Assembly: GCF_900217235.1 (NCBI RefSeq)
Contig: NZ_LT907975.1
Coordinates: forward strand, 3,137,001-3,201,000
Source of the DNA: Pseudodesulfovibrio profundus
GTDB lineage: Bacteria; Desulfobacterota; Desulfovibrionia; Desulfovibrionales; Desulfovibrionaceae
DNA: 64,000 bases
Reading direction: 5' to 3'
A program made the translations under genes and the position numbers. Every line of letters starts with the position of its first letter. Position 1 is the stretch's first letter. A model generated the notes under the pieces. The model searched no databases. It worked only from the letters and a program-made list of their open reading frames with translations, and was not told where the DNA came from. This document shows, piece by piece, positions 15,294 through 41,382 of the stretch.

Positions 15294-15298
15294 CTTCT

Positions 15299-15409: not shown

Positions 15410-15423
15410 GGTTCCTCCTTGTT

Positions 15424-15759
15424 TCATGCTTCGAACTCAGTGCCGCACTGGTTGCAACGCCATTCGCATATCACATGCCTGTCAATGTGTTCGCCGACCT
15501 GATTGCCCACAGCTGATCCTGCGAAGAAACCGGCAAGCGCCCCGGCCAAACCGCCTGCGAGAACACCGAGACCGGTGCCTACGACTGGGACTAATGAGCC
15601 GATGGCCGCCCCGGTAGCTGCGCCTGACGATGCGCCGTAGTATCCACAAGCTCCACCCGTTACGCCTCCGACAACCGTGCCGACTTTCTGGCTTGTGTTG
15701 ACCAGGACGACATGAGCCGAGCTCTCGCATTTGGGACATTTGGGAGTTTCATCACTCAT
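15424..15759 (-). CDS. Zinc-ribbon and glycine-zipper membrane protein
   Basis: 111 aa. CPKC near the N terminus and CNQCG near the C terminus could together form one zinc ribbon. Between them lies a long Gly/Ala-rich double membrane segment with glycine-zipper periodicity (GAATGAAIGSLVPVVGTGLG, GLAGALAGFFAGSAVGNQVG). It lies 14 nt downstream of the VWA gene on the same strand, so it is probably the last intact gene of that operon. It could anchor or insert in a membrane as an effector or pore; function is not known. Confidence 0.65.
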   Translation of the reverse strand: MSDETPKCPKCESSAHVVLVNTSQKVGTVVGGVTGGACGYYGASSGAATGAAIGSLVPVVGTGLGVLAGGLAGALAGFFAGSAVGNQVGEHIDRHVICEWRCNQCGTEFEA

Positions 15760-15773
15760 ATTTTACCTCGTGA

Positions 15774-19302: not shown

Positions 19303-19628
19303 GAATTCCTCCTTTGGAAATGAAAAGCCCCTGCTCCACATGATGTGGGACAGGGGCACAATTTGTTTGTGTTGGGAAGCTAAAAAGAACTCGTTCTTAT
19401 GTGGATAATATATGTCTGAAATTTCTTGAAAAGCAGAGTGCCAACGGCGGCGGCAGTGATGCGATCTTTTGGCTTTGATTCAAGATGCTGTGGGTGGTCA
19501 TGCACAAAAGATCGAAATATGGGGCAACAGAAGTGCTTGTCGCTGGCAGACTCTCTTTCCTTAGGCCTGGGAATAGAGTATGTGGTTGAGACGTTAGTAA
19601 ATTTTAACAGGCTATAGTTAATGTCGAT
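19303..19628. promoter_or_regulatory. Divergent control region of the ATPase operon and the triple-fusion helicase
   Basis: A 326-bp region between oppositely directed genes. It includes the 31-nt hairpin at 19327-19357 and a short palindrome AAGAAC-TC-GTTCTT (19384-19397) suited to a regulator or promoter. No ribosome site is clear before the helicase start. Confidence 0.45.
19327..19357 (-). promoter_or_regulatory. Leader hairpin, copy 1
   Basis: A 31-nt stem-loop: GCCCCTG/CAGGGGC outer stem, one A-C mismatch, a six-position inner stem and a 3-nt loop, followed on the minus strand by TTTTCATTTCC, AAGGAGG and the ATPase start. Copy 2 at 26766-26796 has identical length and position relative to its gene, with paired changes (12:20 A-T versus G-C; 9:23 T-G versus G-C). 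This is RNA-level conservation and suggests attenuation or protein binding. Confidence 0.75.
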
Positions 19629-24854: not shown

Positions 24855-26072
24855 TCATGCCGCCGATTTCAACGGTTTGTTAATTTTGCTGATGTACAAC
24901 CGCTCATGCGGCTTTCCCTCCTTTTCGCATTGTTCCAAAGCCGACTGGGTCTTGAGTTCGTCGCCGATCAATGAAATCAGCTTGTCCGCTACCAGGGAGC
25001 GGTCAAGCGTTCTTCGACCAGCCACTGTTACAACACGGAAACGATGATCTCCTGTCGAGATCCAATCCTGCCCACCAACCAGATGATATGTCTGCCTGAT
25101 GCGTTTCTCTGACTCGGCGATGCGCTCCTCAAGGGCCGTCTTCTGTTTCTTGAGCATGGCGAGCTCTTCCAGTTCCAGTCCGCAAGCGGAATCCGTGGGA
25201 ATGTTCACGGCCTGAAACTTCGGGCAGTCCGCATTGACATCACACCAGTCGCACAGAGGATGAAAACCCTGGCAATAGTCGAGGGCGTTTAACTCCAGGT
25301 TGCCTGCTCGCATGTCTCCCGCCGTCCGCCAGATTGCCACAGCCGTTTGCAGACATGCTTCAAGCATGGCCTGATCCGGCAAGTATGGACCGAACGGCCT
25401 GACCTCGGACAGGGAGATGGAAAGCACCCAGGCTTCGATATCCACATTGTTAGAGGATTCGGGCAAAGCCACGTTGAAAACGGACTGTATTGCCTGAGGG
25501 AACGTGACGGATTTCAACTCCGTTTCAGGGACGGAAAAGCACGGCTCACTCCAGCAGGACTTGAGCAGTCCGACCTGGCCATAGAGCTGCGCTTCATACG
25601 ATGCGTACAGCGACTCCGGAATACGCGCATTGCTCTTGAGTTCAAGAATTCGCACGGCAGGCCGCAGGCCGCCCCAGACAAGGGTAAAATCCAGATGCGC
25701 CTTGATGGGCACGCCGCTGTGCACGATGCAGATCTCAAGCTGCGGCAACAGCTTTACGCCAGTGGCTAGAAGTGCCTTTTCAATTCCGTGTTCCTGCCAG
25801 TGCCCGCGCTGTAGGGTGATCTGTCGTTCGAGAGTACGGGCGACATCATCAGGTGCTAGCCCACCCACGGCGGTTGCGGCGGGAATGCCGGATAAACCAA
25901 GCTTGCTCGCCACGGCCGAACGCATGCACTCCATTCCTTTGCCGATGTCCGACATGCCAATGTACTTGCTACGGTCTCCAAGCTCGCTGGCAGTCTTCTT
26001 TTCAGCGTGAACCAGAAATCCTTGGGTAAGAAGTCGTAACAAGCCATGTGATTTTGTGTTATCATGCTGCAT
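24855..26072 (-). CDS. PD-(D/E)XK nuclease, RecB/Cas4-like, with Fe-S-type cysteines
   Basis: 405 aa from ATG 26072, which has GGAGG 8 nt upstream and overlaps the ERF stop; the longer frame to 26249 runs inside the ERF gene. The nuclease core shows HLDFTLVWGG then RILELKS (D ... E-x-K) and SYEAQLYGQVGLL. A C-terminal CDWCDVNADC cluster resembles the 4Fe-4S cysteines of Cas4/AddB nucleases. C-terminal residues form a coiled coil (LEELAMLKKQKTALEERI). Together with the ERF protein it makes a nuclease/annealase recombination pair, comparable in logic to phage exonuclease plus Beta/RecT; role inferred. Confidence 0.82.
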   Translation of the reverse strand: MQHDNTKSHGLLRLLTQGFLVHAEKKTASELGDRSKYIGMSDIGKGMECMRSAVASKLGLSGIPAATAVGGLAPDDVARTLERQITLQRGHWQEHGIEKALLATGVKLLPQLEICIVHSGVPIKAHLDFTLVWGGLRPAVRILELKSNARIPESLYASYEAQLYGQVGLLKSCWSEPCFSVPETELKSVTFPQAIQSVFNVALPESSNNVDIEAWVLSISLSEVRPFGPYLPDQAMLEACLQTAVAIWRTAGDMRAGNLELNALDYCQGFHPLCDWCDVNADCPKFQAVNIPTDSACGLELEELAMLKKQKTALEERIAESEKRIRQTYHLVGGQDWISTGDHRFRVVTVAGRRTLDRSLVADKLISLIGDELKTQSALEQCEKEGKPHERLYISKINKPLKSAA

Positions 26073-26742
26073 CGGCGTACCTCCACCACACCTTGCGGGC
26101 GCCGTCCCACCGGAATCCGGCCTTACGGAGGAACTCCTTCTTGGAATGGGTATCACCGGTTGCCAGCACGCATTGCTTGCCGTCGTTGGCTGTGCCTTGC
26201 CGGTACAGCACACCATCAAGACGGGGCAAATTAGCGGTCTCAAGGGCATTGCCCTGAGGTGTCGTTTGAGGCCTCGTGACGCCTGAGTTCATCCCGTGGT
26301 TACGGGAGTGAAAACCGGAGTTGTGCTGACTGTCCTGACGTGAAGCCATTTCGCCGTCATCGTCACTTTCGGTCACAATCCCGATCAGGGCAGACAATCC
26401 GTACCGACGAGCGTAGGTCATAGCCGATCCATATCCCTGAGGATCGTTCTTTGGCAGCGGCATGGTCAGCAAGGACGCCTGCCATTGACCTGTCTCGGCA
26501 TGGACGACCTTGGTGACAAGACCGAGTTGGTTTGCTTCGACCGATACCGGATACTGGGTGAGCCAAATACCGTGCGCAAGCAGAGCGTCTCTGCATGCGT
26601 TCATGATGGAATGAAGCGTGGCATAACGGCTGTTTGTAAACGTGTTCTCTGCGTCCTTGAGAGCAGGAGATAGTGTCTGCTGCACCTGGATCATCGCCTC
26701 AGCTAATTCAGTGATTTCCTGGGAACTCATCTGGGGTTCCAT
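26062..26742 (-). CDS. ERF-family single-strand annealing protein
   Basis: 226 aa from ATG 26742, preceded by AAGGAGG. ERF family features: TFTNSRYATLHSIMNACRDA, HGIWLTQYPV, GSAMTYARRYGLSALIGI and an acidic TESDDDGE end. ERF proteins anneal single-stranded DNA in phage and island recombination. The C-terminal ~50 residues form a small extra module (KEFLRKAGFRWDGARKVWWR), a pattern seen in small domains of mobile-element DNA enzymes. It is the first gene of the operon, with the nuclease gene overlapping its stop. It carries leader hairpin copy 2. Confidence 0.85.
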   Translation of the reverse strand: MEPQMSSQEITELAEAMIQVQQTLSPALKDAENTFTNSRYATLHSIMNACRDALLAHGIWLTQYPVSVEANQLGLVTKVVHAETGQWQASLLTMPLPKNDPQGYGSAMTYARRYGLSALIGIVTESDDDGEMASRQDSQHNSGFHSRNHGMNSGVTRPQTTPQGNALETANLPRLDGVLYRQGTANDGKQCVLATGDTHSKKEFLRKAGFRWDGARKVWWRYADAA

Positions 26743-26765
26743 ATTTCCCTCCTTGAAATGAGAAA

Positions 26766-26796
26766 GCCCCTGCGCCGCGATGTGCGGCACAGGGGC
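26766..26796 (-). promoter_or_regulatory. Leader hairpin, copy 2
   Basis: A 31-nt stem-loop with the same outer stem, mismatch, inner stem and loop size as copy 1 at 19327-19357. It is followed on the minus strand by a T-rich stretch, CATTTC and AAGGAGG, 23 nt before the ERF start. Compensating substitutions keep the inner stem paired. Confidence 0.75.
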
Positions 26797-27455
26797 AAAA
26801 TGTCAATTGGTTGATCGAAATGAAAAAACCTTATACTTCAATCAAGTAATATATATTTCACTCGATTTGAAATGCAAACTGTGGCGTTGATTATTGGATG
26901 CCGCCCTTCAGGAAGAAAGAATTGACGCAATAGTGACGGAGACATTACAAAGAACGAAAAATTTAAACAATCCAGCCGCTATAACCCTTTATTTGAGTAT
27001 ATAGCACATTGAATCATTAAACTTGGATTAGCCGAAAACTGCGAATATTAATCCAATGAGAAATCCCCCGGCTCTGCCGGGGGACCATAAGAGTTCGACT
27101 TATGCGGGAATCGTTTTGGGCGTAAGCCCCTCAGCACCTGTATTGCTGCTGCCTTCCCTTGGTTGTCGCATGTCGAAATGGTTGGTGGGGTAATTGTACA
27201 GGCATAGAGGTTGCTGTCTGAGAATAGGGTTTTCCGCCTTTAGGCGGTTCTTAAAGCCACTTTGATTGGCTCACAAATCAAGCCCCTGGCTTTGCCGGGG
27301 GTATCTGACTGCAACTCATTTCCGCTAAGCCAAATGGTGTTTTCCAATGCTCTCGGAAGCTGAAAAAATGTTGGGAATGATTGTGGCTTAATGCAAACAA
27401 AGAGAAATAGTCTGGTCGGTTGACAATGGCTGCGTCACGATAAGGAGAAATAAGC
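26797..27455. other. 659-bp gap with hairpins of a probable decayed small transposable element
   Basis: No protein gene is seen. Two similar palindromes, CCCCCGGCTCTGCCGGGGG (27066-27084) and CCCCTGGCTTTGCCGGGG (27281-27298), each follow AAATC and bound about 230 bp. A third, CCGCCTTTAGGCGG (27233-27246), lies between them. Hairpins of this type flank IS200/IS605-like elements and REP-type MITEs, and no transposase frame remains. On the minus strand a GGAAGGCAGCAGC stretch recalls SRP RNA but lacks its other conserved core. The defence operon promoter must lie in 27300-27440. Confidence 0.45.
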
Positions 27456-30146
27456 ATGCTCGACTTGAAGCTTCGCGAAGAATTCCGTGGGAAGAAACTG
27501 AAAGGTACGATGGTTGATTTTACCAACCGTCAAGGCACCGGTGCTTTGGACAAAAGTGCTGAAGAGTTTCTGAACATTACATATCCCTCTGTCGACTTGC
27601 TTAAACTGGTTGAGGCACTGCAGCCGAGGAAGGCTCGCCCTGTTGTTATCATTGGCTCCAGAGGACAGGGGAAATCGCATTTGATGGCGGCATTGGCGCA
27701 CATGTATAAGGACCCTTCCGCCACAGATAATTGGTTAAATTCATGGGCCGGGCAGCTTCACCGCGATGATCTCACTAATCTTGCTCTCAATCGTGATGTG
27801 GAGGTAATCACTGAAAGCCTGCACCAGCACAATTACACCTTCCTTTGGGATCTACTGTTCGATAAACACCCTGAAGGGAAATACATAAGAGGTAAATGGG
27901 AAGGTCAGGGGGAGAGCAAATCTGAAGTCCCGGGAACATCGTTGTTTCTGGAAATGTTTCAGAAAAAGCCAACGGTCCTGATTCTTGACGAGTTTCAAAC
28001 TTGGTATGAAGGATTAACAAATACAAAACAACACCCCCGCAGGAACTGGGCTTTCAACTTTATTCAGATCCTGTCCGAAATTGCGGAAGGGAATCCTGAG
28101 CTTTTAACACTAGTACTTTCCGTCCGTGAAGGCGATTCAGATGCCGCTCAACAGGTATATCGTATCAACCCAGTTCGCATTGATTTTAAAGGGCCAGAGG
28201 CAAAAAGAGACCGCCAGAAGCTTTTACTTTATCGCATTTTTGAGAATCGAATTCAGATTCCTGAGGTCGATATTGAAGACCTGATCACATCTCATATAGA
28301 CGAGTTTTACCGTCTATATCACATCCCCGGATCCGAGCAGGAACGGCACAAAGATGAATTTGTCCATAGCTGGCCTTTCTCGCCTCTGTTAATGCAGCTT
28401 CTTGACGATCAAGTACTCATTGCAACCCAGACCCAAGAAACACGGGACCTGCTGAGAATTCTTGTCGATGTTTTTAAGGATGCCGGTGAACGCAGCCCAA
28501 TCCTCACGGCTGCAGACTTTTCTATTATAGAAGAAAAGAGCGGCGTCGCCTCTCTTCTCGATTCCGTAGCCAACCAGATCCATCGTGACCTCCGCTCAAA
28601 AGCGCTGAGAAACTTCGAAGCGGTAAAAGAAGCTGTTGAGGGCACCACACAGAAGGTGCCGAATCTCGGAACAATACTCAGCTCATTGTGGATACGCTCT
28701 TTGTCATTGGAAAACATGGCCGGAGCTCGACCTGCTGAAATTCAGTTGGACATTACCAGAAGCGAGCCGATTGATGACAACCTGTTTTCTGTTGAGCTGG
28801 AAGCGATCAAAGAGAATAGTTTCAACATTCACCAAAAAGGCGATCGTTTGGTTTTCCTGAATGAAGAAAATCCTCAGGCGAAGCTGATGGCCCATGCTAA
28901 AAATGACAAGCTGTTTAATGAAGGGCAGGATGTTGAGCATTTAGCGCAGGAAATTCGATACGTTCTTGGCGGCAGCGAAGCTAACAGTTCGCTTGGCCGC
29001 GTGATTGTGCTGAAAAAAAACTGGCAGAGTAATCCGTGGTCCGATGTGGATGAAAAAGATCGTCCTGAAAGCTGGGACAATCGTATTCCCCACGTTGTTA
29101 TACCCAAAGGTACTGTGAAGGTTAAAGAGCTTGGGATCTGGCTTAAAGAGAAGATCTCCAAGCACCGGAACACCATCCGATTTATTCTTGCCAAAGAAAC
29201 GTTGGAACCTGTCTTCTACGATAAAGGACTTCTTGTGCTTGCCCGAGCAGTCTATCTGGCCAAGCAATGGAAAAACGCGGACGCCAACTATTCAGCGCTT
29301 CATGTGAAGTATCAGAAAGAGCTTCGTGACCAGTTAAAAGTGCGTTTTAATCGCTATGCGGTTCTTGACACATGGAATTTCGGCAATCCTGACCAATGCG
29401 AATTTGAGATCAACAGCCACAAGGCTGAAGGTGATCGCATTGTTCCCGCTATCCATGAAAAAATTAAGACTGACTTGTTTCTCGCGGAAGATTTTGAAGA
29501 CCTCGTGCTGGAGGCTGCAAAGCGCAATGATTCTTTTGCCACCGTATTGGATCAGTTGAAAGAGCCAATGGGAGGCGGAAACCCCTGTATCCCATGGCTG
29601 GGTGAAAACGAAGCCAAAGAGCACATCGTTCGGCTTTGTGCCCGTGGAAAAATCGAGATCAATATTGCTGGACGGGAGCTGCTGAGCAGTCGTCCCGGCG
29701 AATCTGAAGATGCCGCATGGAATCGCATGAAAGGCAAAATTGGAACTGGCCGAACCCTCGAAGAAACATTGATTCACGAGCCAGACAGCACGGTTAGCTC
29801 CGGAGGCGGTCAAACGGAAGATGATACCGCCCCAACAACCTCAGGTGATTACACCGGTTCGACAACAGGCGGCTCAGGAGTCAGTAAAGGAGAATCCGGC
29901 GGAATAACTCCGGGCGGCCTGTTTGGTGGAGGCACAGGCACAAAACCCAAAACACCGTTCAGCTCTGATACAACCTCATCCCTGTCGCTTCTTGGAAAGC
30001 TTGAGTCTTGGGGGATTACACCTGGTGCGAAGGTATCGAATGTAAAAATATCCATTGAGAATCTTACCGGCGCACAATTGCAGGAGCTAATTAAGAAATT
30101 GCCGGACGGAGTTTCCTACGGTCTTAACCTTGAGAAGGAGGGCTAA
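27456..30146 (+). CDS. DUF499-type P-loop ATPase, first gene of a defence-like operon
   Basis: 896 aa; ATG follows AAGGAG. Walker A is IGSRGQGKSHL (~67-77) and Walker B is VLILDEFQTWYEG (~175-187). The overall pattern matches DUF499 proteins, large ATPases recurrent in anti-phage loci and comparable to BREX BrxC/PglY. The C-terminal ~130 residues are a Gly/Ser/Thr-rich linker followed by a short compact domain (NLTGAQLQELIKKLPDGVSY). Its stop overlaps the start of the PglZ-like gene by one base. The expected role is a DNA- or complex-remodelling ATPase; function here is inferred. Confidence 0.82.
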   Translation: MLDLKLREEFRGKKLKGTMVDFTNRQGTGALDKSAEEFLNITYPSVDLLKLVEALQPRKARPVVIIGSRGQGKSHLMAALAHMYKDPSATDNWLNSWAGQLHRDDLTNLALNRDVEVITESLHQHNYTFLWDLLFDKHPEGKYIRGKWEGQGESKSEVPGTSLFLEMFQKKPTVLILDEFQTWYEGLTNTKQHPRRNWAFNFIQILSEIAEGNPELLTLVLSVREGDSDAAQQVYRINPVRIDFKGPEAKRDRQKLLLYRIFENRIQIPEVDIEDLITSHIDEFYRLYHIPGSEQERHKDEFVHSWPFSPLLMQLLDDQVLIATQTQETRDLLRILVDVFKDAGERSPILTAADFSIIEEKSGVASLLDSVANQIHRDLRSKALRNFEAVKEAVEGTTQKVPNLGTILSSLWIRSLSLENMAGARPAEIQLDITRSEPIDDNLFSVELEAIKENSFNIHQKGDRLVFLNEENPQAKLMAHAKNDKLFNEGQDVEHLAQEIRYVLGGSEANSSLGRVIVLKKNWQSNPWSDVDEKDRPESWDNRIPHVVIPKGTVKVKELGIWLKEKISKHRNTIRFILAKETLEPVFYDKGLLVLARAVYLAKQWKNADANYSALHVKYQKELRDQLKVRFNRYAVLDTWNFGNPDQCEFEINSHKAEGDRIVPAIHEKIKTDLFLAEDFEDLVLEAAKRNDSFATVLDQLKEPMGGGNPCIPWLGENEAKEHIVRLCARGKIEINIAGRELLSSRPGESEDAAWNRMKGKIGTGRTLEETLIHEPDSTVSSGGGQTEDDTAPTTSGDYTGSTTGGSGVSKGESGGITPGGLFGGGTGTKPKTPFSSDTTSSLSLLGKLESWGITPGAKVSNVKISIENLTGAQLQELIKKLPDGVSYGLNLEKEG

Positions 30147-31129
30147 TGGAAAAGTCATTTCTCAACACGGTTATGAATTCGAGCCCGCAGGCCGGATGGG
30201 AACAGATTCTTGCTGAGGTCTGGAAGATTTTTTCTGATCCTCTTAATCCCGCCAAGGCGGATGCCCTGACAACCGAAAGGGACAAAAAGGCAGGAGCATT
30301 GGACACTCTACTCAGCGGGGCTGCGTGGGATCTCTGGCACGAAGTGAATAGCTCTCCTTTGCGGACCTCACAGCATCTTCAGAGTTTCTGGGAACAGGAA
30401 TCCAAAGGCAAAGCCATACTCATATTGGATGCGCTTTCTCTTCGCGAAGCATGCTGGATTCTTGAGCAGGCCGATTTACGCAGCTACGCCGTTAATAAAA
30501 GCTATGCCACCCTTGCTGAGTTTCCGGGCGACACCACACCGTTTGCCAAGGCGCTTGGATTTGGACAACGCTCATCTTTGACAGATAACGGCGGTAAAAG
30601 TGAATCTTTCCCCGGCGCTTATACAGAGTCTGTTGATATGCCCTTTGCCGATTGCGGCAGTTTGGTAAAGCCGGAAACCGGTGTGATTTTTTGGCATCAC
30701 TGGCCGGACAGTAACATGCATGACCTTGCAGATAATGGCAGCGGCGCACAGAAATTGACCAAGGCGGCCGTCGAGGCCCTTACGGGAGATGACTTCTGGA
30801 GCTTTGTCGATCGCCTTGCCACCGGCCGCAAACTGGTGATTACCGGTGATCATGGATATGCGAATGCCGGGCTGTACAGAGATCTGGTGGACAAAGATCA
30901 GATCGGCTACATGAAAAAATTATTCAAGAGCAGCCGCTCGACAACGAACTCACCTGAAACCAATCACAACTGGGTGCCTCCCTTAACGATCGAACTGGAA
31001 GGCCACACACTCGCCCTTGGCCGTCGCAAATGGAGAAGTCAGGGCGGCTATCCCACGCTGACACATGGCGGACTCTCTTTATTGGAGATGGCAGTTCCGT
31101 TTATAGAAATTGAAAAAAGGCAAGGTTAA
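30146..31129 (+). CDS. Short PglZ-like alkaline-phosphatase-fold protein
   Basis: 327 aa, less than half of a usual BREX PglZ (~700-900 aa). Metal-site signatures of the alkaline phosphatase fold as used in PglZ are visible: ILILDALSLREACW (~92-105) and LVITGDHGYANAG (~230-242), with HHWPDSNMHDL between. The N-terminal extension of large PglZ proteins is missing, so this is a minimal core. TAATG coupling to the ATPase gene and 5 nt to the methyltransferase gene place it firmly in the operon. PglZ proteins are signature components of BREX and Pgl phage resistance. Confidence 0.78.
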   Translation: MEKSFLNTVMNSSPQAGWEQILAEVWKIFSDPLNPAKADALTTERDKKAGALDTLLSGAAWDLWHEVNSSPLRTSQHLQSFWEQESKGKAILILDALSLREACWILEQADLRSYAVNKSYATLAEFPGDTTPFAKALGFGQRSSLTDNGGKSESFPGAYTESVDMPFADCGSLVKPETGVIFWHHWPDSNMHDLADNGSGAQKLTKAAVEALTGDDFWSFVDRLATGRKLVITGDHGYANAGLYRDLVDKDQIGYMKKLFKSSRSTTNSPETNHNWVPPLTIELEGHTLALGRRKWRSQGGYPTLTHGGLSLLEMAVPFIEIEKRQG

Positions 31130-31134
31130 CAAAT

Positions 31135-34100
31135 ATGGCTGGTGCAAGACTTACAAAAGCAGAAGAAATAAAAAGAATGGTGGAGGCGGCAGTGGATGCC
31201 GGGGAAGAACGCCATCTTGAAACAGTAGACTTTAATGATCCCAACAGACCGAAGACTTGTCTGGAGGTCGATTTCCCGATTCTCCCCATAAATCAGATCG
31301 CACAAATCGAAGGTAACGCCGGAAAGCCTATCTATCAAATGTCAAAATGGTGGGCTCGTCGTCGTTCCTCTGTGTTTCGTTCAACATTGATTGCAGCCGC
31401 TACGAAAGCACCAGAAGATCAGGCCGAAGCGGCAAAGTTAGTTTGGGAAAACTACTACTGCAATCACCAGAAGAATGCTTCTTTTAAGAAACTGAAGGTT
31501 GCAGACATCTTCATGGGGGGCGGAACCACATTGGTTGAAGGTGCCCGCCTTGGCATGCAGATGTATGGTAATGACCTAAACCCGGTGGCATGGCTGGTGG
31601 TAAAGAATGAGCTGGCCGATGTGGATATTGAAGAGGTGAAACGCCTCTTTACCTATATCGAATCTGAAGTGAAGCCGCAGATCATGCCCTTTTATGCATG
31701 TGAAGGTCCCGGCGGTGAAAAAGGCATCTGGTACAGTGTGGAAACTGGAAAGCCCATGCCGGACGATTTTGATCCGCTGGCTGTGGCTCCTGAAGAGCGT
31801 AAGAAATACCGTTATGAAGGCCCGGAGATCATCTACACCTTTTGGGCTAAACATGGACCGTGCAGCGCTGCTGGCTGTAATCATCGCACACCGCTTTTCA
31901 GCTCCCCGGTAATTGCGGTTAAGGAGCTGTCTGTAAAGTCATGGCCTAAGCAGAAATGTGAAGTCTGCAATGAATTCTTTGATATTGAAGCGGGTGAGGT
32001 GCGCATGGCACCCGATGAACCTTTGATCATCGCAGAGGGTGAAAAACCTTTTACCACCCTCAAATTAAACGGTTCATTTGATTGCCCTCATTGCGGGAAA
32101 AACCAATACAGCGCCGCGATTAGTGGGAAGGGCAAAAACAAAAAAGTATCCCTCTCTCTGTTGATTCATCCAGACTGGATGGAGGGTGCTCTTGGTACTG
32201 ACGATCAAGGCAATCTGGGGGGGACCGTAACAAGTTCGGTTGAAGACACCAGGCGCTGGAATGAATTGCGCCAGAGCACCCTCAAGCTGATTGAGGTGCG
32301 TGGAAAACTACCGGACGAAATCTCCTTGCCAAGCACTGGCGAGGTGATGTCTACCCAAAATGGGACGATCCCTAAAAAATCCCATTTTGCGTGTCAGGGA
32401 AAGACCTGTGGTTTGCAGCAAAATGTACTTAGTTCCATAAAATCTTCCGGCAAATCCGGCCCAACCGCCGAATACAGTTTACAATGCTATTCTCCTAAGA
32501 GGTCAAAAGGTTCGGCAGCATACAACGGACGCTTCTTCAAAGCCCCAAACAAACTTGATACCAAAAGGCTTAATTCAGCTTTTTTTGAATGGGAGAAAAG
32601 AAAGGTAAATGACTTAAAAGGCTATTGGCCTGAATCTGAGTTGCCGTATGGTTTTATGACTCATCATCTGCAAGGCGGAGTACCCAATCATGGTTTTACA
32701 CATTGGCATACAATGTTTAATCCTCGTCAACTGCTGGTTCACGCTCTTCTGTTAAAAACAATTGATAGCGCCATAGGGTTCTCTGATGGGGCAAAGGAAT
32801 TTGCATTAGGTGCATTCCAGCAATATCTCAGATATCAAAACATGTTCGTTTTCTTTCAGGTGCATCGGGATTGCTTGGCTCCTCATTTTTCCAATAACAA
32901 TTATCACCCAAAGTCGAACATAGTAGAAAACTCGGTTTTTTGTAAGATTGGAAGTGGCAATTGGGAATCATGTTGCAAAAATGTGTTAAATGGGAACGAT
33001 TGGAAAGACCGCCCTTGGGAAGTTGTTCCGAAGGAATACCTGTCAGGAATAAATAACGACGTAGCTAGATTAATAACTGGGAAAGGGCATCGGATTTCCC
33101 TGGATGATAAGCTATTATTTAGTGGTCAAATTACCTGTGGCTCGTCAACAGAATTGTCCAGTCTCAAACCATGCTCCTATGACCTTGTCATAACCGACCC
33201 TCCATTTGGAGGACTTTTGCATTACTCTGAACTTGCCGACTTTTTTTATGTCTGGCTGCGATTGGTGTTAAAAGATAAATACCCGGAATATTTCACCGGA
33301 GAATACACTCCGAAAACCCTTGAGGCTGTTGCTAACAAAGCCCGCAATCCGGAAGATGCCGATGACTTTTACAAGCGTGTTCTGACGGATTGCTGGCGTG
33401 AAGCGCATCGTATCCTAAAACCGGGCGGTATTCTTTCCTTTACCTTCCACCACAGTGAGGATGAACCGTGGGTAGATGTTCTGGAAAGCCTTTTTAATTC
33501 TGGGTTCTTCCTCGAAGCAACCTATCCGATTCGCTCTGATGAGACCAAGGGTAAGGGTGAATTTGGGTCAAAGACTATTGAATACGACATCATTCACGTT
33601 TGCCGGAAGCGGACCGAAGAGCCCTCGAGAATTAGTTGGCCGAAATTGCGTCGCCTGATTTTGCGGGATGTTCGCCAACTGCAGGCCCTTCTGGAACATC
33701 ACCAACAGGCCGGTCTACCGGAGGCGGATATCGAGGTCATCAAACGCGGTAAGGCGCTGGAATACTTCTCCCGTCACTACGGCAAAGTCTACGTGGAAGA
33801 AGGTCGCGAGTTTACAGTTAAAGAAGCTTTGGCTGGTATCAACGAGATAATTCAGGACCAGTCCGGAAGTGATGCCGTGAAAGCTCCGGACAAAGCGGAA
33901 CCGCTGACCCGTCAGTTCCTGCGTATCTTTGCCGATAAGGAACGGATCGAACGGGACCAGATGCAGAAATTCCTGCGCGGTTCCGGTGTGGGGCCGAGTG
34001 ATTTTACCAATCGCGGCTGGTGTAAGGAGATCAACCGGCCGAAGGCTTTTGTTTGGGTCGATGCGCTCGAATTTGCAAAGGAGAAAAAGTCACTCAAAAA

Positions 34101-34371
34101 CCTACGTCGCGATTTTGATCAGGTTCTTTTCCTTGTAGGGGCGTCGTACTCCGGTAGTGGTATCAATGTAAAAAAGGAAATGAGCGACAACGGTTTTAAA
34201 CCTCATCCGGCGCTGGGCGAATTATTCAACTGGCTGGGAATGCACGGACCGACCAGTGAATTTAGAAGTGCAAGCTATACCGCTAACCAGCTCTTTAACA
34301 GTTGGTCTGCTGCGAACCAGTCAGTCATGCAAAAGCAGCTTTCATTGTTCGATCTTGCGGAGGAGGTATAA
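31135..34371 (+). CDS. DUF1156 DNA methyltransferase with zinc ribbons
   Basis: 1078 aa. N-terminal DUF1156 region (LEVDFPILPINQIAQIEGNA, QMSKWWARRRSSVFR). SAM motif I is VADIFMGGGTTL (~122). The catalytic motif ITDPPFGGLLHY (~687) fits N6-adenine or N4-cytosine modification. About 560 residues separate the two, including several CxxC-type zinc sites (CSAAGC, CEVC, CPHCG, CQGKTC) and probably the target recognition region. The gene text from about 32390 to 33170 is visibly richer in A+T than the ends, consistent with exchange of the specificity region. It likely marks self DNA for the neighbouring SNF2/PglZ/ATPase components, by analogy with BREX and DISARM. Confidence 0.88.
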   Translation: MAGARLTKAEEIKRMVEAAVDAGEERHLETVDFNDPNRPKTCLEVDFPILPINQIAQIEGNAGKPIYQMSKWWARRRSSVFRSTLIAAATKAPEDQAEAAKLVWENYYCNHQKNASFKKLKVADIFMGGGTTLVEGARLGMQMYGNDLNPVAWLVVKNELADVDIEEVKRLFTYIESEVKPQIMPFYACEGPGGEKGIWYSVETGKPMPDDFDPLAVAPEERKKYRYEGPEIIYTFWAKHGPCSAAGCNHRTPLFSSPVIAVKELSVKSWPKQKCEVCNEFFDIEAGEVRMAPDEPLIIAEGEKPFTTLKLNGSFDCPHCGKNQYSAAISGKGKNKKVSLSLLIHPDWMEGALGTDDQGNLGGTVTSSVEDTRRWNELRQSTLKLIEVRGKLPDEISLPSTGEVMSTQNGTIPKKSHFACQGKTCGLQQNVLSSIKSSGKSGPTAEYSLQCYSPKRSKGSAAYNGRFFKAPNKLDTKRLNSAFFEWEKRKVNDLKGYWPESELPYGFMTHHLQGGVPNHGFTHWHTMFNPRQLLVHALLLKTIDSAIGFSDGAKEFALGAFQQYLRYQNMFVFFQVHRDCLAPHFSNNNYHPKSNIVENSVFCKIGSGNWESCCKNVLNGNDWKDRPWEVVPKEYLSGINNDVARLITGKGHRISLDDKLLFSGQITCGSSTELSSLKPCSYDLVITDPPFGGLLHYSELADFFYVWLRLVLKDKYPEYFTGEYTPKTLEAVANKARNPEDADDFYKRVLTDCWREAHRILKPGGILSFTFHHSEDEPWVDVLESLFNSGFFLEATYPIRSDETKGKGEFGSKTIEYDIIHVCRKRTEEPSRISWPKLRRLILRDVRQLQALLEHHQQAGLPEADIEVIKRGKALEYFSRHYGKVYVEEGREFTVKEALAGINEIIQDQSGSDAVKAPDKAEPLTRQFLRIFADKERIERDQMQKFLRGSGVGPSDFTNRGWCKEINRPKAFVWVDALEFAKEKKSLKNLRRDFDQVLFLVGASYSGSGINVKKEMSDNGFKPHPALGELFNWLGMHGPTSEFRSASYTANQLFNSWSAANQSVMQKQLSLFDLAEEV

Positions 34372-34374
34372 GCG

Positions 34375-34875
34375 GTGAATCCAATTTTGCTTGATGATGT
34401 CTGGCAGCGCAAAGGGATCTCGGTCATTTGGGATAACCACGTGCTGGCAAAACTGGTGAAAGATAGCCGGGCTATATCGCTCCGCGAGTTTTTTTCATAT
34501 TACGAGAAAAGCTGGCCGGATGATGACATGCCCTTCATTAACAACGACCTACTTTTGGTCGCTGGTTTGGATGCCGCATTGGATACTCTTGAGGCCCAGA
34601 ATGCAGAAGAATGGGTTACTCAAGAGGTGTACAAACGGATCTACGATTTCCAGAACTGGGCGGAAGGTCAGTACGCTCTTGTCTTCTGGATGAGCAAACA
34701 GGACCGTTGGAGGGAACATCTGGAAAATAACCGCTACACCTGGCTCTGCGACGGCAAAGACCGTGGCAAAGAGATTGAGCTGGGGAGCGGTATATGGAAC
34801 GGGGCTCAGCTCAGTGTTCGCAGGATTGAATCTGACGGACGATGGATAGGATTGTTTTTGGACAGGATAAGTTGA
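34375..34875 (+). CDS. Unknown small component of the defence-like operon
   Basis: 166 aa from GTG 34375, preceded by GGAGG. Soluble, acidic and Trp-rich (DVWQRKGISVIWDNHVLAKL, IYDFQNWAEGQYALVFWMSK, YTWLCDGKDRGKEIELG). No P-loop, so it is not a BrxF-like ATPase, and no resemblance to BrxA or BrxB that I can see. Tight packing between the methyltransferase (3-nt gap) and the helicase (overlap or 2-nt gap) argues it is a core subunit. Family not recognised. Confidence 0.65.
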   Translation: MNPILLDDVWQRKGISVIWDNHVLAKLVKDSRAISLREFFSYYEKSWPDDDMPFINNDLLLVAGLDAALDTLEAQNAEEWVTQEVYKRIYDFQNWAEGQYALVFWMSKQDRWREHLENNRYTWLCDGKDRGKEIELGSGIWNGAQLSVRRIESDGRWIGLFLDRIS

Positions 34876-37616
34876 TCGTGAGTTACAAGATTCTTCCTGG
34901 TACACGGATACAGCACCGTGAGTTTGGTCAGGGAGCCGTTCTTTCGGTCTCGGAAGGGTTTGCTACGGTCTTCTTTTCCATCGGTGAAAAGCGGATTCCG
35001 TTAGCGGAGCTGTTACCGGCATTGAGCCGGAACGAGACTGTGGTTCTAAACCTCGGGGCTGGCGATGAACGTCTGAAAAAGGCATGGCTCTGCTATAAAG
35101 CACATGAGCTTCCGCTTTTGGATCACGCGACATCGATGACGGCAGCCCGGATAGATCTGCTGCCGCATCAGGTCGTCCTGACACATAAAATTGCAATTGC
35201 TGGTCCTAGACGATTCCTGATTGCCGATGAAGTTGGACTGGGCAAGACCATCGAAACAGCGTTGGTTCTAAGGGAACTGGCCAGTCGCGGTGAACTGAAT
35301 CGAGCCTTGATGGTTGTGCCTGCCGGGCTGGTGAATAACTGGCATCGGGAACTGAATGAGGTGTTTAACCTAAATTTTGAAGTCTTCGGAAGCGAAGGTG
35401 ATGTCAGCGACCGTAAAACGAACGCCTTTAAAAAGCATAATCTGCTTATTGCCAGTATCGATACACTCAAACGCCCAGCGCGTGTGAAAAAATTACTAGA
35501 AGCCCCGAAATGGGATCTGGTGGTCTTTGATGAAGCTCATCACTGCACGGCTTACAAGCAGGGCGGCAAAGCTAAGAAAACGCAGAATTATAAGCTGGCG
35601 GAGTCTCTCAGAGACCATGCCCGCGATTTGATGCTTCTTTCAGCAACTCCGCATCAGGGTGACCATTATCGATTCTGGAAATTGATTCAGCTTCTTGATC
35701 CTTCGCTGTTTAGAAACGAAAAGGAGATGGTTGAGGAGCGGCACCGGCTCAATCCCTATATTTTTCGACGAACGAAAGCAGACGCATGCCGTTCGGATGG
35801 TTCCACGCTCTTTGCCCGGCGCTGGGTGCATACCGAAGCGTTCTCGATGTCAGATGTTGAAAGGCAATTCTATCAACAGCTGAATGAATATCTTCGTGAT
35901 GGATTCGCGCTGGCCAAAAAACAAGGAAGCAAAGGCCGGGCGCTGGGCTTTGTGATGACTATCTTCCAAAAGATTGCTGCATCAAGTTTTGCCGCTGTTC
36001 ACCGAACTCTTCGCCGTCGTTTGATTGCGCTCACCGTTCATGAAGGTTTGATCCATGATGAAAATCTGGATATCGATCTGCGTGATGAAGCATTTAATGC
36101 GGCCAAAAACTACATCTGCCGGGAATTCCAGCTGGGGAATGATCAGATGAGCATGCTGGAAGCAGAGCGTATTCTTAACGAGCTAAAACGAAAACAGCTG
36201 AAAAAAATCAATGAGGAAGAGCTCGCGTTTGCCTCTGATACTTTTTCCGATGAACTGACCACACAGGCCGCTGAAGATGCCACTATGAATGCGGTTGCAT
36301 ATGCTCTTCCAGAGGAACGGCAGCGCATCGTGCAGTTATTGGAACAATTTCCAGATGTTCAGGAAACCAAAGTCGAAAAACTAATTTCTGCGCTCGGCAT
36401 TTTGTGGAATCAGAATCCCAAGGAACGGGTCGTTATCTTTGCTACCTATCTGGGCACCGTAGAAATGCTGGGGAAGGAAATTGACCAAGCCTACCCCGGT
36501 CAGGGAGTCGTGGTGCTCAAAGGTGGTGATCATGGCAGTAAGACAGCCGCTGAAAAGCGATTCAAGCAGCCGGAAGGGCCAAGGGTCATGATTTGTACGG
36601 CGGCTGGTCGTGAAGGTATCAACCTCCAACATGCCAGAATTCTTTTTAATTTCGATTTGCCCTGGAACCCGATGGACATGGAGCAGCGCATCGGTCGAAT
36701 TCATCGCTACGGCCAGAAAGATACAGCACAGGTCTACAACCTTGTTCTTGGCGATACAATCGAGGGGAAAATTTTCTTACTTCTCGATGATAAGCTGAAA
36801 GACATTGCACTTGCGCTGGGTAAGGTTGATGAAAAAGGAAATGTTGCTGAAGACCTGCGTTCACAGATTTTAGGGCAGCTGCAGGAGACCATCAATTACC
36901 AGAAACTCTACGCGGAAGCCTTAAGCGATCCCTCCTTAAAACGGACCCAGCTTGAGCTTAATGCAGCCATGACCAATGCCTCCGATGCTCGTGACGCGGT
37001 GTCGGAATTGTTTCAGGAGCTGGATCAGTTCAGTCTCGATGAATATCAGCCGTTATCCGATGTTGATAAGAGCATGCAGCAGTTGATCCTTTTTACATCA
37101 GCCTGTGCCGAACTCGATAAGGGTAGCTTTGAAAAAGATACGGCAACATACGTTTTTACTGACACCTCGGCCAATAAGATTGTGTTCACCACTGACCGGG
37201 AACAGGCATTGGAACATGACAATGTTGAGATCCTCGGTCTGGATCATCCTCGTATAGAGAAATGGCTTCGAGAATACAGAACGCTACCGGCAGAGCAGAT
37301 CGCATGTACGATTACCGGAAACGATTTACCCCAAGGAATTCTTACCATTTGGGAAATTGAGACGCACAACGAAAAAGGTCATGCCATTCGTTCAGTCATA
37401 AAAATCGGAATGACTGATGCCGGGGAACGTCTTGTTTCGCTTGAACGCCTTGTCGATGATCTTTTCCAGAAACAAAGCAAGAAGGCCAAGGGCAATATTG
37501 ACCTGTTGCCATTAGCAGAGACTCTTCTCGAACGGGAAATTAATCATCGCGGCAAAGCCAAGGATGACCAAGCATATAGCTCAAAACTTATTGGCTGGGT
37601 TGAGGTGGTGCACTAA
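34842..37616 (+). CDS. SNF2-family helicase of the defence-like operon
   Basis: 924 aa from ATG 34842, or 912 aa from GTG 34878, which lies right after the previous stop; both are plausible. The N-terminal ~60 residues (GTRIQHREFGQGAVLSVSEG) look like a small beta-barrel found on HepA/SNF2 proteins. Motif I is DEVGLGKTIETAL (~130), motif II FDEAHHC (~229), motif III LLSATPHQGD, motif VI RIGRIHRYGQ (~616). This resembles the SNF2 helicases of DISARM (DrmD) and BREX type 3 (BrxHII-like). It is the last intact gene of the operon. Confidence 0.88.
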   Translation: MDRIVFGQDKLIVSYKILPGTRIQHREFGQGAVLSVSEGFATVFFSIGEKRIPLAELLPALSRNETVVLNLGAGDERLKKAWLCYKAHELPLLDHATSMTAARIDLLPHQVVLTHKIAIAGPRRFLIADEVGLGKTIETALVLRELASRGELNRALMVVPAGLVNNWHRELNEVFNLNFEVFGSEGDVSDRKTNAFKKHNLLIASIDTLKRPARVKKLLEAPKWDLVVFDEAHHCTAYKQGGKAKKTQNYKLAESLRDHARDLMLLSATPHQGDHYRFWKLIQLLDPSLFRNEKEMVEERHRLNPYIFRRTKADACRSDGSTLFARRWVHTEAFSMSDVERQFYQQLNEYLRDGFALAKKQGSKGRALGFVMTIFQKIAASSFAAVHRTLRRRLIALTVHEGLIHDENLDIDLRDEAFNAAKNYICREFQLGNDQMSMLEAERILNELKRKQLKKINEEELAFASDTFSDELTTQAAEDATMNAVAYALPEERQRIVQLLEQFPDVQETKVEKLISALGILWNQNPKERVVIFATYLGTVEMLGKEIDQAYPGQGVVVLKGGDHGSKTAAEKRFKQPEGPRVMICTAAGREGINLQHARILFNFDLPWNPMDMEQRIGRIHRYGQKDTAQVYNLVLGDTIEGKIFLLLDDKLKDIALALGKVDEKGNVAEDLRSQILGQLQETINYQKLYAEALSDPSLKRTQLELNAAMTNASDARDAVSELFQELDQFSLDEYQPLSDVDKSMQQLILFTSACAELDKGSFEKDTATYVFTDTSANKIVFTTDREQALEHDNVEILGLDHPRIEKWLREYRTLPAEQIACTITGNDLPQGILTIWEIETHNEKGHAIRSVIKIGMTDAGERLVSLERLVDDLFQKQSKKAKGNIDLLPLAETLLEREINHRGKAKDDQAYSSKLIGWVEVVH

Positions 37617-37714
37617 TCTTCCAGGCCAAGCTGTTGCTTGGTGAATTTTCCTATTACAAGACCTACAGTCGGAGTGTGCTCGGGACGCTGGGCAATATGA
37701 AGTATGCACTCTAA
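37617..37714 (+). pseudogene. Orphan coding remnant after the helicase
   Basis: In the frame starting at 37616 this short stretch reads as a convincing protein C terminus (contains QAKLLLGEFSYYKTYSRSVL and LGTLGNMKYAL) and ends at TAA 37712-37714. It has no start codon; an in-frame TGA lies just upstream within the helicase gene. It may be the tail of a further gene that was deleted. The IS5-like element inserted at this stop codon. Family not recognised. Confidence 0.4.
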
Positions 37715-37718: not shown

Positions 37719-39180
37719 GTCGCCCCTGAGAAACTCACACTTCATTGATTTTACTTAACAATACTTTGCTCACAATGTAGTATTTTCGACTAGGAAATGC
37801 AGTAATTCCGCGGAAACCCGGTCGAAACGACGCAGTATTTGGTGGGAGAATTATGAAGGCAAAACTCAAAAAACAGCCGCAAGGAACCTTCCTTTATCCA
37901 GACCTTTTGGACCAGCTCGATCCAAAGCACTCACTTCTTCAATTGGCGAGAAGAATTCCCTGGGAGCGTTTCGAGGCAGAGTTCTCCGCGCTTTACAGCG
38001 AACAGGGTCGCCCGGCCAAGCCGACCCGTTTGATGGTCGGTCTGATGCTCCTCAAGCAGTTGGAGAATCTGAGCGACGAGAGGGTCGTGGAGGTGTGGAC
38101 GCAAAATCCGTATTATCAGGCGTTCTGCGGGATGACGGAGTTTCAATGGAGTTTGCCTTGCGACCCGACGGACCTGGTGTACTTCCGCAAGCGCATCGGC
38201 GAGGACGGAGCGAGGTTGATCTTCGAGACCTCCGTGGAATTGCATGGCGACGACGCCATGGAGCGGGAGATTACGGTGGACACTACGGTCCAAGAGAAGA
38301 ACATCACATTTCCCACCGATCTGAAGTTGATGGAGAAAATCATCAAGGACTGCTGGAAAATAGCAGGCCGGGAGGGAGTCAAGTTTCGTCGCAGTTTCAG
38401 GCGTACGCTTCCCAAGCTGCGGATGAAACGGATGAAGATGGCGAAAAAGGCAAAGAAGCTGCGCACCATGGCCGGAGCACTGATTCGGGAGCTTCGTCGC
38501 AAGCTGCCGAGAGAAGCCCTGACCTGCCATGGAGAACGGCTCGATCTGTTCGAACGGGTCAGGAGCCAGAAACGGAGCGACAAAAACAAGGTCTACAGCT
38601 TGCACGAGCCAGACATCCTCTGCATATCCAAAGGCAAGGCGCACAAGCAATACGAGTTTGGTCGCAAGGCGTCTGTGGCCGTCACCAAGACCACGGGCAT
38701 CATCGTCGGCGCGATGAGGCTTCGATGAAAACGTTTACGACGGCCACACCTTGCCGGATGTCCTCGAACAATGTTGGATGATCACAAAATCTTGCCCGGA
38801 GGTGGCGATCTGCGACCGGGGCTACAGGGGACTGAAGCAAGTCGGCGACACGCAAATACTGATTCCAGGCCGTCCCAAGAAGAAGGACACCCGCTATCAG
38901 CGTTTCAAGGCCCGACAGCGCTTCCGTCGCCGAGCGGCCACTGAGCCCCTCATCGGCCACCTCAAGCACGATCACCGCATGGCTCGGAGTTATCTCAAAG
39001 GTGCGGTTGGCGACGCCATCAATCTGTTCATGGCTGCTGCGGCCTTCAATTTCAGGAAATGGATGCGGAAGTTGGGAGGACTTTTTGCGCTCCTGGCACT
39101 CCTGCTCTTCGCCGGACACTCAAGACAAAGACTGCTGACCAGCGCTGGGTAAGGGCGGAAACGGGTTTTTCAGGGGCGAC
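37719..39180 (+). mobile_element. IS5-like insertion sequence (DUF772/DDE type)
   Basis: 1462 bp with inverted ends GTCGCCCCTGAGAAA and GTCGCCCCTGAAAAA (right end as reverse complement), flanked by TAATTTA on both sides (37712-37718 and 39181-39187), a 7-bp apparent target duplication. It carries one transposase gene split by a frameshift. Confidence 0.85.
37853..39152 (+). pseudogene. IS5-like transposase broken by one extra G
   Basis: The N-terminal part (37853-38728) has the DUF772 domain (PTRLMVGLMLLKQLENLSDE, NPYYQAFCGMTEFQW) and first catalytic Asp region (TVDTTVQEKN). The frame stops at TGA after VGAMRLR. Deleting one G of the pair at 38718-38719 restores VGAMSFDENVYDGHTLP and the second half (to 39152) with ICDRGYRG (Asp) and the C-terminal Glu region (RRAATEPLIGHLKHDHRM). 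The restored protein is about 432 aa. There is no A-rich slippery site at the break, so mutation or sequencing error is more likely than programmed shifting. Confidence 0.8.
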
Positions 39181-40109: not shown

Positions 40110-40250
40110 TAGCAAACACCCGCCTGGCATGGCGGTGGCATTGTCTTTAGGAGGAGCACCCATTGTTGCCGCCATGCCAATTTGTGTGTGATGAGAAAAC
40201 CTACCATATTCTCATCAAATTTTGATTTGAATAGGAAGAGAAAGCACATC

Positions 40251-41382
40251 ATGACTCAAGTAATATGGCAAAGCCAAGTGTGGCCTACATTCCGGTATGA
40301 CGCGGAAGTTCTCCTCACTCAACTCGGGAGATGCCGGAGGTTGCTGGGAGAACTGCTCGCCCAAATGGCTACCTTGGACGGCAAGATCGCTCTTGAGGCT
40401 GAGGCTGTTTTTCTGGAGGTGGAAGTGCTGGGGACTTCGGAAATTGAAGGCGTGAAATTGCAGCCGCAGTCCGTGCGGTCTTCTGTGGTCCGGAAACTCG
40501 GGCTGGAGTAAGCAGACTATCATCCCCGTAATCAATATGAGGACGGGATGGTTGAGGTGCTTGTTGATGCCACAACGAACCATAGCTCGCCTCTTACCGC
40601 AGAGCGACTCTTTGGATGGCATGCGGCGCTTTTCCCGACAGGGTATACCGGTATTCAGCGTATTACTCTGTTGGCAATTGGCGGACATACGCAGACGGAA
40701 CCATGCAAGTCATTTCCGGCAGGCCAAGGAAGGTGAAGTTACACTATGAAGCCCCGCCTGCGGATTCGCTTCCCAAGGAGATGAAAGCCTTCCGAATTGG
40801 TTCAACTCGCCGGTGGATGGAGACGGTATTATTCGGGCTGGGGTTGCGCACTTCTGGTTTGTGACGCTTCATCCTTTTGATGATGGCAACGGGAGGCTCG
40901 CGCGGGCTATTACCGATATGGCCATGACGCAAGACGAGCAAACGTCTCGGAGAGCCTATAGTTTGTCTTCTCAGATTTTGGCTTCCAGGAAGGCCTATTA
41001 TGGGGTCCTTGAGGAGGCGCAGAAGGGCAAAAATGACATCACTGGGTGGTTGGCCTGGTTCCTCGAAACAGTGGAACAAGGCATGCGAAATTCCCGTGAG
41101 TTGGCCCGGTTGACGATCATGAAGGCGGAGTTCTGGAAACAGCACGCCAAAGCCAACATCAATGACCAGCAGCGTAAGGTGCTCAACAAATTACTCGATG
41201 CTGGTCCTGACGGCTTCGAGGGCGGCCTTTCAAACAAAAAGTACATCTCCATGACCAAGACCTCTTCCGCGACGGCTACGCGCCATTTGAAGGCGTTGGT
41301 TGATGCCGGATTGCTCATTCAGAGTGGCGGCGGGCGGAGTGTGCGGTACGAGATAGACTGGTCCTCATGCGAAGTGTATTAA
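40251..41382 (+). pseudogene. Fic-family adenylyltransferase-type gene with three lesions
   Basis: Reconstructed, this is a ~375-aa Fic protein: N-terminal DUF4172 part (QVWPTFRYDAEVL, SEIEGVKL), Fic core with the active motif HPFDDGNGR, and a C-terminal winged helix (SSATATRHLKALVDAGLLI). Lesions: TAA in place of a sense codon at 40509-40511 (frame continues ADYHPRNQYEDG), a 2-base CT duplication near 40665-40669 (between GIQRIT and VGNWRTYADG), and a 1-base loss near 40793 (between EMKAF and NWFNSPVDGDG). Three independent lesions make it a true pseudogene. Fic proteins modify target proteins with AMP and include toxins. Confidence 0.88.

Follow-up and report, generated by a model that had tools for sequence, protein, structure and literature searches.

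A probable Type-3 BREX-Related anti-phage operon in Pseudodesulfovibrio profundus and recurrent nested defence genes in related loci

Five collinear plus-strand genes occupy positions 27456–37616 of a 64,000-nucleotide stretch of the Pseudodesulfovibrio profundus genome (assembly GCF_900217235.1, contig NZ_LT907975.1, positions 3,137,001 to 3,201,000; hereafter the window, numbered from its first letter). Judged from their sequences, they very likely form a complete and probably functional anti-phage operon of Type-3 BREX-Related (BR), a kind of system related to bacteriophage exclusion (BREX). The system type is not new: its identity is already in print, and the window copy is an intact, ordinary member. 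What we found beyond print, and consider the part worth following, is the recurrence of defence modules at two internal junctions of the operon in related loci. All five open reading frames (ORFs) predicted by an earlier note on this DNA were recovered in place, real and intact in the ORF list of the window. The operon and its motifs are laid out as follows (lengths in amino acids, aa; MTase, methyltransferase; iSTAND, inactive signal transduction ATPase with numerous domains).

27456..30146, plus strand: DUF499 (BrxC-like) AAA+ ATPase, 896 aa; Pfam DUF499 above cut-off
27654–27677, plus strand: Walker A region of DUF499, G67–S74
27978–28004, plus strand: Walker B region of DUF499, L175–W183
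30146..31129, plus strand: standalone PglZ, 327 aa, candidate nuclease; predicted fold and conserved residues
31135..34371, plus strand: DUF1156 N6-type DNA MTase, 1078 aa; Pfam, NCBIfam, PADLOC and motifs
31501–31545, plus strand: MTase motif I
31861–32409, plus strand: MTase insert with two four-cysteine (zinc-finger-like) sets
33193–33213, plus strand: MTase motif TDPPFGG
34375..34875, plus strand: 166-aa protein, GTG start, probable iSTAND with BrxB/BrxF-like role; AlphaFold model
34878..37616, plus strand: SNF2 helicase without nuclease fusion, 912 aa from GTG; SNF2-rel, BrxH and HmaA matches
37625..37642, plus strand: weak terminator-like hairpin 3' of the operon; 1 found against 0.6 expected in shuffles, not significant

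The genes proved tightly packed, as had been claimed: there is a 1-nt overlap between DUF499 and PglZ, a 5-nt gap between PglZ and the MTase and a 3-nt gap between the MTase and the 166-aa gene. For the SNF2 gene, the ORF caller had set the start at ATG 34842, giving 924 aa and a 34-nt overlap with the 166-aa gene. Since the SNF2 proteins of relatives start about 12 codons after this ATG, the start is probably GTG 34878, which yields 912 aa and a 2-nt gap instead of the overlap.

In January 2026, Rakesh and Krishnan defined three DUF499-centred BREX-Related systems (PMC12839542). As described there, Type-3 BR comprises a DUF499 ATPase, an MTase, a nuclease-less helicase and a near-universal standalone active PglZ in 569 taxa, of which 466 (82%) carry a separate iSTAND gene, so that the latter is not obligatory. 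Its MTase bears a target recognition domain (TRD) inserted between motif I and DPPF with one or two four-cysteine zinc fingers, two such sets marking a subset; auxiliary nucleases are absent or kept in limited instances, and PglZ stands in for the helicases that carry a nuclease in Type-1 and Type-2 BR (PMC12839542). Further marks of the type are a Tudor domain at the N-terminus of the helicase and an ATPase that belongs to the third clade of DUF499. The window operon shares the DUF499 ATPase, a DUF1156 MTase with a two-zinc-finger insert as TRD, a nuclease-less SNF2 protein, the standalone PglZ and a separate small gene, probably iSTAND, and no essential difference from the published parts list was found. 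The earlier note was correct in almost every detail, including a defence-type operon with BREX type 3 as nearest relative and yet distinct from it, and its interpretation was borne out in part. It had suggested a separate or transitional defence type, a view that it would have dropped on an exact match of the five genes to a known system; Type-3 BR is such a system, because its published parts list holds the same five parts. What looked like a candidate for a new defence type thereby becomes a clear member of one described only recently. No experimental papers on Type-3 BR were found in our literature search, and the window operon, being intact and compact, lends itself to an initial functional assay.

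The three large proteins carry well-conserved motifs. The ATPase matched Pfam DUF499 with 26.3 bits (cut-off 23), while the BREX-type models DUF6079 (13.9 bits, cut-off 23) and BrxC (12.7 bits) scored lower; G67, R69, G70, G72, K73, S74, D178 and E179 were identical in 74/74 aligned sequences. The MTase was recognised by Pfam N6_N4_Mtase (33.3 bits, cut-off 26.7) and PADLOC HmaB (121.3 bits). It shows the motif order FxGxG(126) to DPPF(688) with about 550 residues between; F126, G128, G130 and D688–F691 were identical in 72/72 sequences, and the cysteines of the insert were equally constant (C243, C248, C275, C278, C317, C320 and C420 in 72/72, C425 in 66/72). Against the anti-phage DUF1156 equivalog NF042963, presumably a marker of Type-2 BR, the MTase reached 105.6 bits at a cut-off of 1000. 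Type-2 BR is characterised by a DUF3780 gene and a helicase with HKD nuclease; no DUF3780 match was present among the Pfam, NCBIfam and PADLOC matches listed for the five proteins, and the window operon does not match Type-2 BR on these points. The SNF2 protein matched Pfam SNF2-rel (83.6 bits, cut-off 24.9) and, in PADLOC, BrxH (334.9 bits) and HmaA (318.5 bits over model positions 74–693 of 1176), stopping short of the C-terminal part of the HmaA model. Its Pfam matches included no nuclease domain; an N-terminal Tudor match (E 0.12) is suggestive only. G132, G134, K135, T136, D230, E231, S267, T269 and G618–Q625 were identical in 68/68 sequences.

To place the operon among its relatives, we analysed 84 loci, namely the best 80 of 228 relatives from a scan of genome contigs with PglZ, plus four plasmids; because of this recruitment, locus counts describe close relatives. 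All five genes were present in 70/84 loci, in identical order every time, which shows that the set is not a chance assembly and answers the earlier call for the synteny of homologues. In 61 of the 70 complete loci each gene had at least 80% of the length of its window counterpart, and in the other nine one gene either ran past the end of the retrieved sequence or was divided between two ORFs. Among the 14 incomplete loci, 12 were truncated where the contig stops, about 3.2 kb or less from the operon; one (L030) had broken core genes, and in another (L065) the MTase was exchanged, so that its remaining 102-aa piece, matching only MTase residues 990–1071, excluded it from the complete set. A close copy (L022) was equally intact, with 78–91% protein identity to the window.

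These data bear on two rival readings. Hma, a three-gene relative of Type-3 BR (PMC8565338) that corresponds to Type-1 BR, shares a DUF499-type ATPase, a DUF1156 MTase and an SNF2 helicase with the window, and the HmaA and HmaB scores could suggest that an Hma operon gained PglZ and the small protein as accessories. We consider this very improbable: five genes are conserved here rather than three, the 166-aa gene was present in 72/84 loci, the remainder being cut or broken loci, and the helicase, at 924 aa, does not extend to the C-terminal part of HmaA, whose model has 1176 positions. The presence of PglZ in all loci, by comparison, is by design, because the loci were recruited with it. Type-1 BR is moreover described as having neither PglZ nor iSTAND and as having a nuclease-fused helicase in 79% of taxa (PMC12839542).

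Alternatively, the operon might be a reduced BREX type 3 system (BrxF, BrxC, PglXI, BrxHII, PglZ, BrxA) that lost BrxA and had BrxF and full-length PglZ replaced. Both share the MTase class, SNF2, PglZ, an AAA+ ATPase and a small, probably STAND-like subunit; the BrxH score of the helicase and a weak BREX_PglZ_3 match at the PglZ C-terminus (18.9 bits) speak for such an origin. However, the ATPase fits DUF499 instead of BrxC/DUF6079, no BrxA is found among the five proteins, and the small subunit lacks a P-loop, whereas the host's own BrxF carries GxxGxGKT. In an MTase tree, the five-gene MTases (22 rows: window, 20 chosen loci and the Desulfovibrionia genome G166; short L014 and L015 left out) were separated from 10 other DUF1156/BREX-type MTases by a single change with a Shimodaira–Hasegawa-like approximate likelihood ratio test (SH-aLRT) support of 99; several branches, notably among the other MTases, are long. 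The host has a separate BREX-3 locus whose MTase fell outside the five-gene group. Relatives of the five-gene set (best 80 of 228) span many phyla, and the set is therefore not a recent decay product. Gene order and MTase tree thus largely refute the reduction of a BREX type 3 system, which we regard as very improbable.

Besides the window operon, the host genome (G000) carries two further PglZ-bearing systems, so that three coexist. A BREX-1-like locus (L153, G000:C1:320000–338500) contains BrxB (C1:335418) and PglZ (C1:324290) about 11 kb apart. The BREX-3 locus (L154, G000:C1:526000–545500) comprises BrxF (C1:527582, 200 bits), an MTase (C1:533227) and PglZ (C1:541877), a 714-aa open frame compared with the 327 aa of the window protein. 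This BrxF was the only match in the genome at the NCBIfam cut-off of 50 bits, and it lies outside the window operon. The suggested likeness to DISARM (defence island system associated with restriction-modification) held for the SNF2 helicase only, which matched DrmD with 317 bits, below the cut-off of 610. DISARM is built on a DrmA/DrmB core and a different MTase family; here, the DrmA model matched only the SNF2 protein among the matches listed, and neither DrmB nor DrmC was among those listed for the five proteins (best 25 of 56 for SNF2, best 25 of 27 for the MTase).

The 327-aa protein is predicted to adopt the PglZ fold of the nucleotide-pyrophosphatase (NPP)/alkaline-phosphatase type, a relation that is weak by sequence and strong by fold. 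At E ≤ 1, Pfam PglZ matched 6/43 family members (best E 0.031) and the related family Phosphodiest 8/43 (best E 0.015); a family profile searched against the PDB found PglZ/PorX chains at E 0.04–0.17 only, and a designed helical protein scored slightly better (E 0.034). An AlphaFold model built from 43 sequences reached a predicted local distance difference test (pLDDT) score of 89.0 and a predicted template-modelling (pTM) score of 0.91. In a Foldseek search of the PDB, ranks 1–17 were PorX chains (best E 8.3e-10) and rank 18 was 9zn5_B, an 879-residue chain, presumably PglZ, of the Acinetobacter BrxC–BrxB/PglZ complex (E 1.2e-6). These matches to PorX and a BREX-complex chain settle the identity of the predicted fold and support the idea of a minimal, standalone PglZ core. 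Furthermore, D95, T130, D188, H192, D235, H236 and H307 were identical in 84/84 aligned sequences (window and 83 of the 84 loci; L053 was too short), and we take these seven residues to be the metal and nucleophile signature, that is, the catalytic set, of NPP-type enzymes.

For the 166-aa protein, a Trp-rich member of an unknown family according to the earlier note, modelling argues for an iSTAND subunit (an inactive STAND/AAA+ domain), an assignment we hold to be likely and one that gives the protein a testable role. The AlphaFold model (pLDDT 93.9, pTM 0.89) gave 586 Foldseek matches at E ≤ 10 (best E 0.1), and among the 50 listed, 46 were P-loop NTPases by title (RadA/Rad51, p97/Cdc48, KaiC and others). 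A strand at 59–63 takes the Walker B position, followed by a strand at 101–105, short strands at 112–115 and 120–124 and further strands at 149–153 and 156–162, with no C-terminal helix bundle. The consensus GxxxxGK[ST] of Walker A was found in 0/73 family members, while W10, G14, W19, R37, W47, G64, D70, L102, W105, R111, A144, G159 and R164 were invariant in 73/73. This order of elements, alongside weak fold matches and negative sequence tests, fits the published iSTAND, which has eroded Walker motifs, a three-stranded beta insert after strand 4 and no C-terminal helical bundle (PMC12839542). The window protein had 0 matches in NCBIfam and PADLOC and only sub-threshold ones in Pfam (best E 0.028). 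Across 47 members, NCBIfam gave five families with one member each (best E 0.06), and a PDB sequence search with the family gave two unrelated matches (E 0.14 and 1.1). The reported absence of BrxA, BrxB and BrxF holds at the level of sequence; as an iSTAND subunit, however, the 166-aa protein probably fills the BrxB/BrxF slot of the operon and is the probable sensor of the system.

Several observations weigh against a functional Type-3 BR operon of this make-up. The assignment was made by the published parts list, not by comparison of gene order or sequences. Of the profile searches proposed for the proteins, DUF499 passed its cut-off, while in Pfam PglZ (11.6 bits, cut-off 25) and DUF1156 (20.8 bits, cut-off 24) stayed below theirs. 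The model of the 166-aa protein had no PDB match at E ≤ 0.001 in Foldseek, and hhalign of its family (47 rows) with 18 BrxF and 15 BrxB sequences found no profile match: among 150 column-shuffled decoys each, 17/150 scored as high for BrxF and 73/150 for BrxB. Such a lack of likeness may be expected of a fast-evolving family, yet it is no evidence for iSTAND. Upstream, a small helix-turn-helix (HTH) gene (excisionase/MerR-like by eye), a candidate operon regulator, lies directly 5' of DUF499 in 31/74 loci (for example L020, L024, L025 and L099). The window operon lacks it, and the upstream gap contains no plus-strand ORF of at least 55 aa. Instead, positions 27050–27345 contain a pair of conserved ends belonging to a dispersed element, likely a decayed one of the IS200/IS605 insertion sequence type. 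Since the gap lacks the HTH gene and holds this element, expression of the operon is uncertain. In genomes G010, G011, G021 and G030 of the same genus, these ends are separated by about 530–560 bp, and a related end on contig 2 of G000 adjoins a 143-aa ORF resembling a Y1/IS200-like transposase by eye. A promoter scan 5' of the operon was uninformative (2 sites, 1.4 expected), and Rfam at gathering thresholds found only tRNA and tRNA-Sec in the whole window. The decayed element upstream, a split transposase downstream and the missing HTH gene could mean that the copy is a silent relic. With five frames intact, conserved motifs kept and the near copy L022 equally intact, we find this unlikely and keep to the reading of a functional Type-3 BR operon.

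How such an operon would act can be sketched by homology and analogy with BREX type 1. There, BrxC, BrxB and PglZ form the core complex, in which BrxB bridges BrxC and PglZ at the ATP pocket, to which it contributes an arginine (PMC13326643). The BREX type 1 PglZ, which joins BrxB in a sub-complex, is a nuclease that depends on metal; it cleaves plasmid and phage DNA and contributes to defence with no obvious role in methylation (PMC12205998). By extension, the MTase would mark the DNA of the host, with its large zinc-finger insert reading the target motif, and the DUF499 ATPase would serve as an ATP-dependent scaffold on DNA that tethers PglZ via iSTAND. On invading DNA, the SNF2 motor may remodel or travel along the DNA, shifting the complex from marking to restriction, whereupon PglZ, as a putative metal-dependent NPP-fold nuclease, would nick the invading DNA and halt its replication. 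One result speaks against the simple version in which a sensor switches PglZ on: BrxB binding left the nuclease activity of BREX type 1 PglZ unchanged (PMC12205998). A serious alternative, though on balance an improbable one, is that PglZ acts on nucleotides or cyclic oligonucleotides instead of phage DNA, by nucleotide depletion or signal control. The best fold matches are PorX, an oligonucleotide-acting phosphodiesterase, and nucleotide depletion is offered as a second mode in the Type-3 BR paper (PMC12839542). Against it stand the cleavage of plasmid and phage DNA by the type 1 enzyme (PMC12205998) and the fact that PglZ takes over from the helicases that bear a nuclease in the other two BR types (PMC12839542); we thus favour the role of PglZ as a DNA nuclease.

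The distribution of the genes points to horizontal spread of the operon, because it is patchy: PglZ was found in 1/98 genomes (host and near relatives), namely the host only, and the 166-aa family in 2/348 genomes of the class. The second of these, G166, has ORFs that match in size and order, and its MTase (45% identity) joins the five-gene group. PglZ relatives were detected in 44/72,556 plasmid records, 37 of them at 43–48% identity and the remaining seven distant haloarchaeal versions, including two at E 0.03 and 0.3; 32/44 records were typed conjugative. The 166-aa protein occurred in 38 plasmid records. Among 50,697 phage records, no PglZ relative was found at E 0.01. A Haloplanus plasmid (L173, 8270–14767) carries a distant archaeal version with DUF499, an 'alkaline phosphatase' (a PglZ relative, 25% identity), a DNA methyltransferase and a 132-aa protein, and no SNF2 gene is annotated within the stretch shown.

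While the window copy carries no insertion, 26/70 complete loci do, compared with the limited instances of auxiliary nucleases described for Type-3 BR (PMC12839542). Gaps above 300 bp were found at the PglZ/MTase junction in 23/78 loci, at iSTAND/SNF2 in 9/72, at MTase/iSTAND in 5/71 and at DUF499/PglZ in 1/83; L065 was left out of the counts for the two junctions of the MTase and kept for iSTAND/SNF2, where its pair is intact. This distribution over junctions was uneven (chi-square p 5e-7, ignoring relatedness). On a PglZ tree, which was a quick one with SH-aLRT only and 31/79 weak inner branches, the insertion state required 14 changes at PglZ/MTase (79 rows), nine at iSTAND/SNF2 (73 rows) and two at MTase/iSTAND (72 rows), so that insertion or loss recurs. 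The cargo comprises 75 listed ORFs in 31 loci including L065, some short ones of which may not be genes; the Haloplanus locus and L021 were left out of the cargo counts. We scanned 20/75 ORFs, the methylase of L065 among them, against Pfam and/or PADLOC, and 18/30 loci without L065 had cargo of a named family, whether scanned, BLAST-clustered with a scanned ORF or named in the record:

PglZ/MTase junction: SIR2 and HerA (L020, L066, L075)
PglZ/MTase junction: IetA and IetS (L052, L073, L091)
iSTAND/SNF2 junction: HEC-01 AAA and DUF4276 (L062, L074, L075, L087)
PglZ/MTase and iSTAND/SNF2 junctions, one at each: Schlafen AlbA_2 (L090 and L093)
MTase/iSTAND junction: TIR (L032)
DUF499/PglZ junction: GmrSD_N (L059)
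DUF5131 (L040)
candidate families PDC-M48B (L032, L070, L077) and PDC-M24B (L026, L031)

Scanned cargo of L069 (also negative in PADLOC), L027 and L044 and the 266-aa ORF of L062 had no Pfam match. The main text of PMC12839542 contains none of the terms 'SIR2', 'subtil', 'DUF4276' and 'TIR domain', and from titles and abstract openings we recognised no published report of defence modules nested in such operons. The pattern is relevant to Klebsiella plasmids on which such an operon encloses SIR2–HerA; should the nesting be functional, it would illustrate how BREX-like systems are connected to backup effectors.

An exchange of the marking enzyme was seen at L065, a locus from a Desulfobacteraceae metagenome-assembled genome, where a 1049-aa Eco57I-type methylase and small ORFs (11820–16148) stand in the place of the DUF1156 MTase. 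A separate 102-aa ORF matches MTase residues 990–1071 with 34% identity (E 5e-12). As a single case from a metagenome assembly, the swap is a lead only; because L065 keeps only this C-terminal tail of the MTase, it suggests that the tail could be a plug coupling any methylase to the complex. Together with the nested cargo, this led us to a tentative model, possible but doubtful, in which the Type-3 BR operon would be a docking platform: the PglZ/MTase and iSTAND/SNF2 junctions would take up complete, unrelated immune modules, co-transcribed and acting as a fallback once the PglZ complex has been blocked, the marking enzyme would be exchangeable, and the window copy would represent the cargo-free ground state.

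The site of the operon may be an integrated mobile element, as suggested by a tyrosine integrase-like ORF (10682–11932, by eye) and a triad of MoxR-type AAA, middle and vWA-like proteins (15774–19359, by eye). Other upstream neighbours are a 1705-aa protein in which RecQ-type and UvrD-type helicases are fused and the N-terminus is exonuclease-like (19629–24746; type and N-terminus by eye) and the adjoining ERF recombinase (26062–26790). Directly 3' of the operon lies the transposase split over two frames (37853–39152; DUF772 and DDE_Tnp_1_6), followed by a Fic-type protein in two ORFs, one with a DUF4172 part and one with the Fic part (40182–41382).

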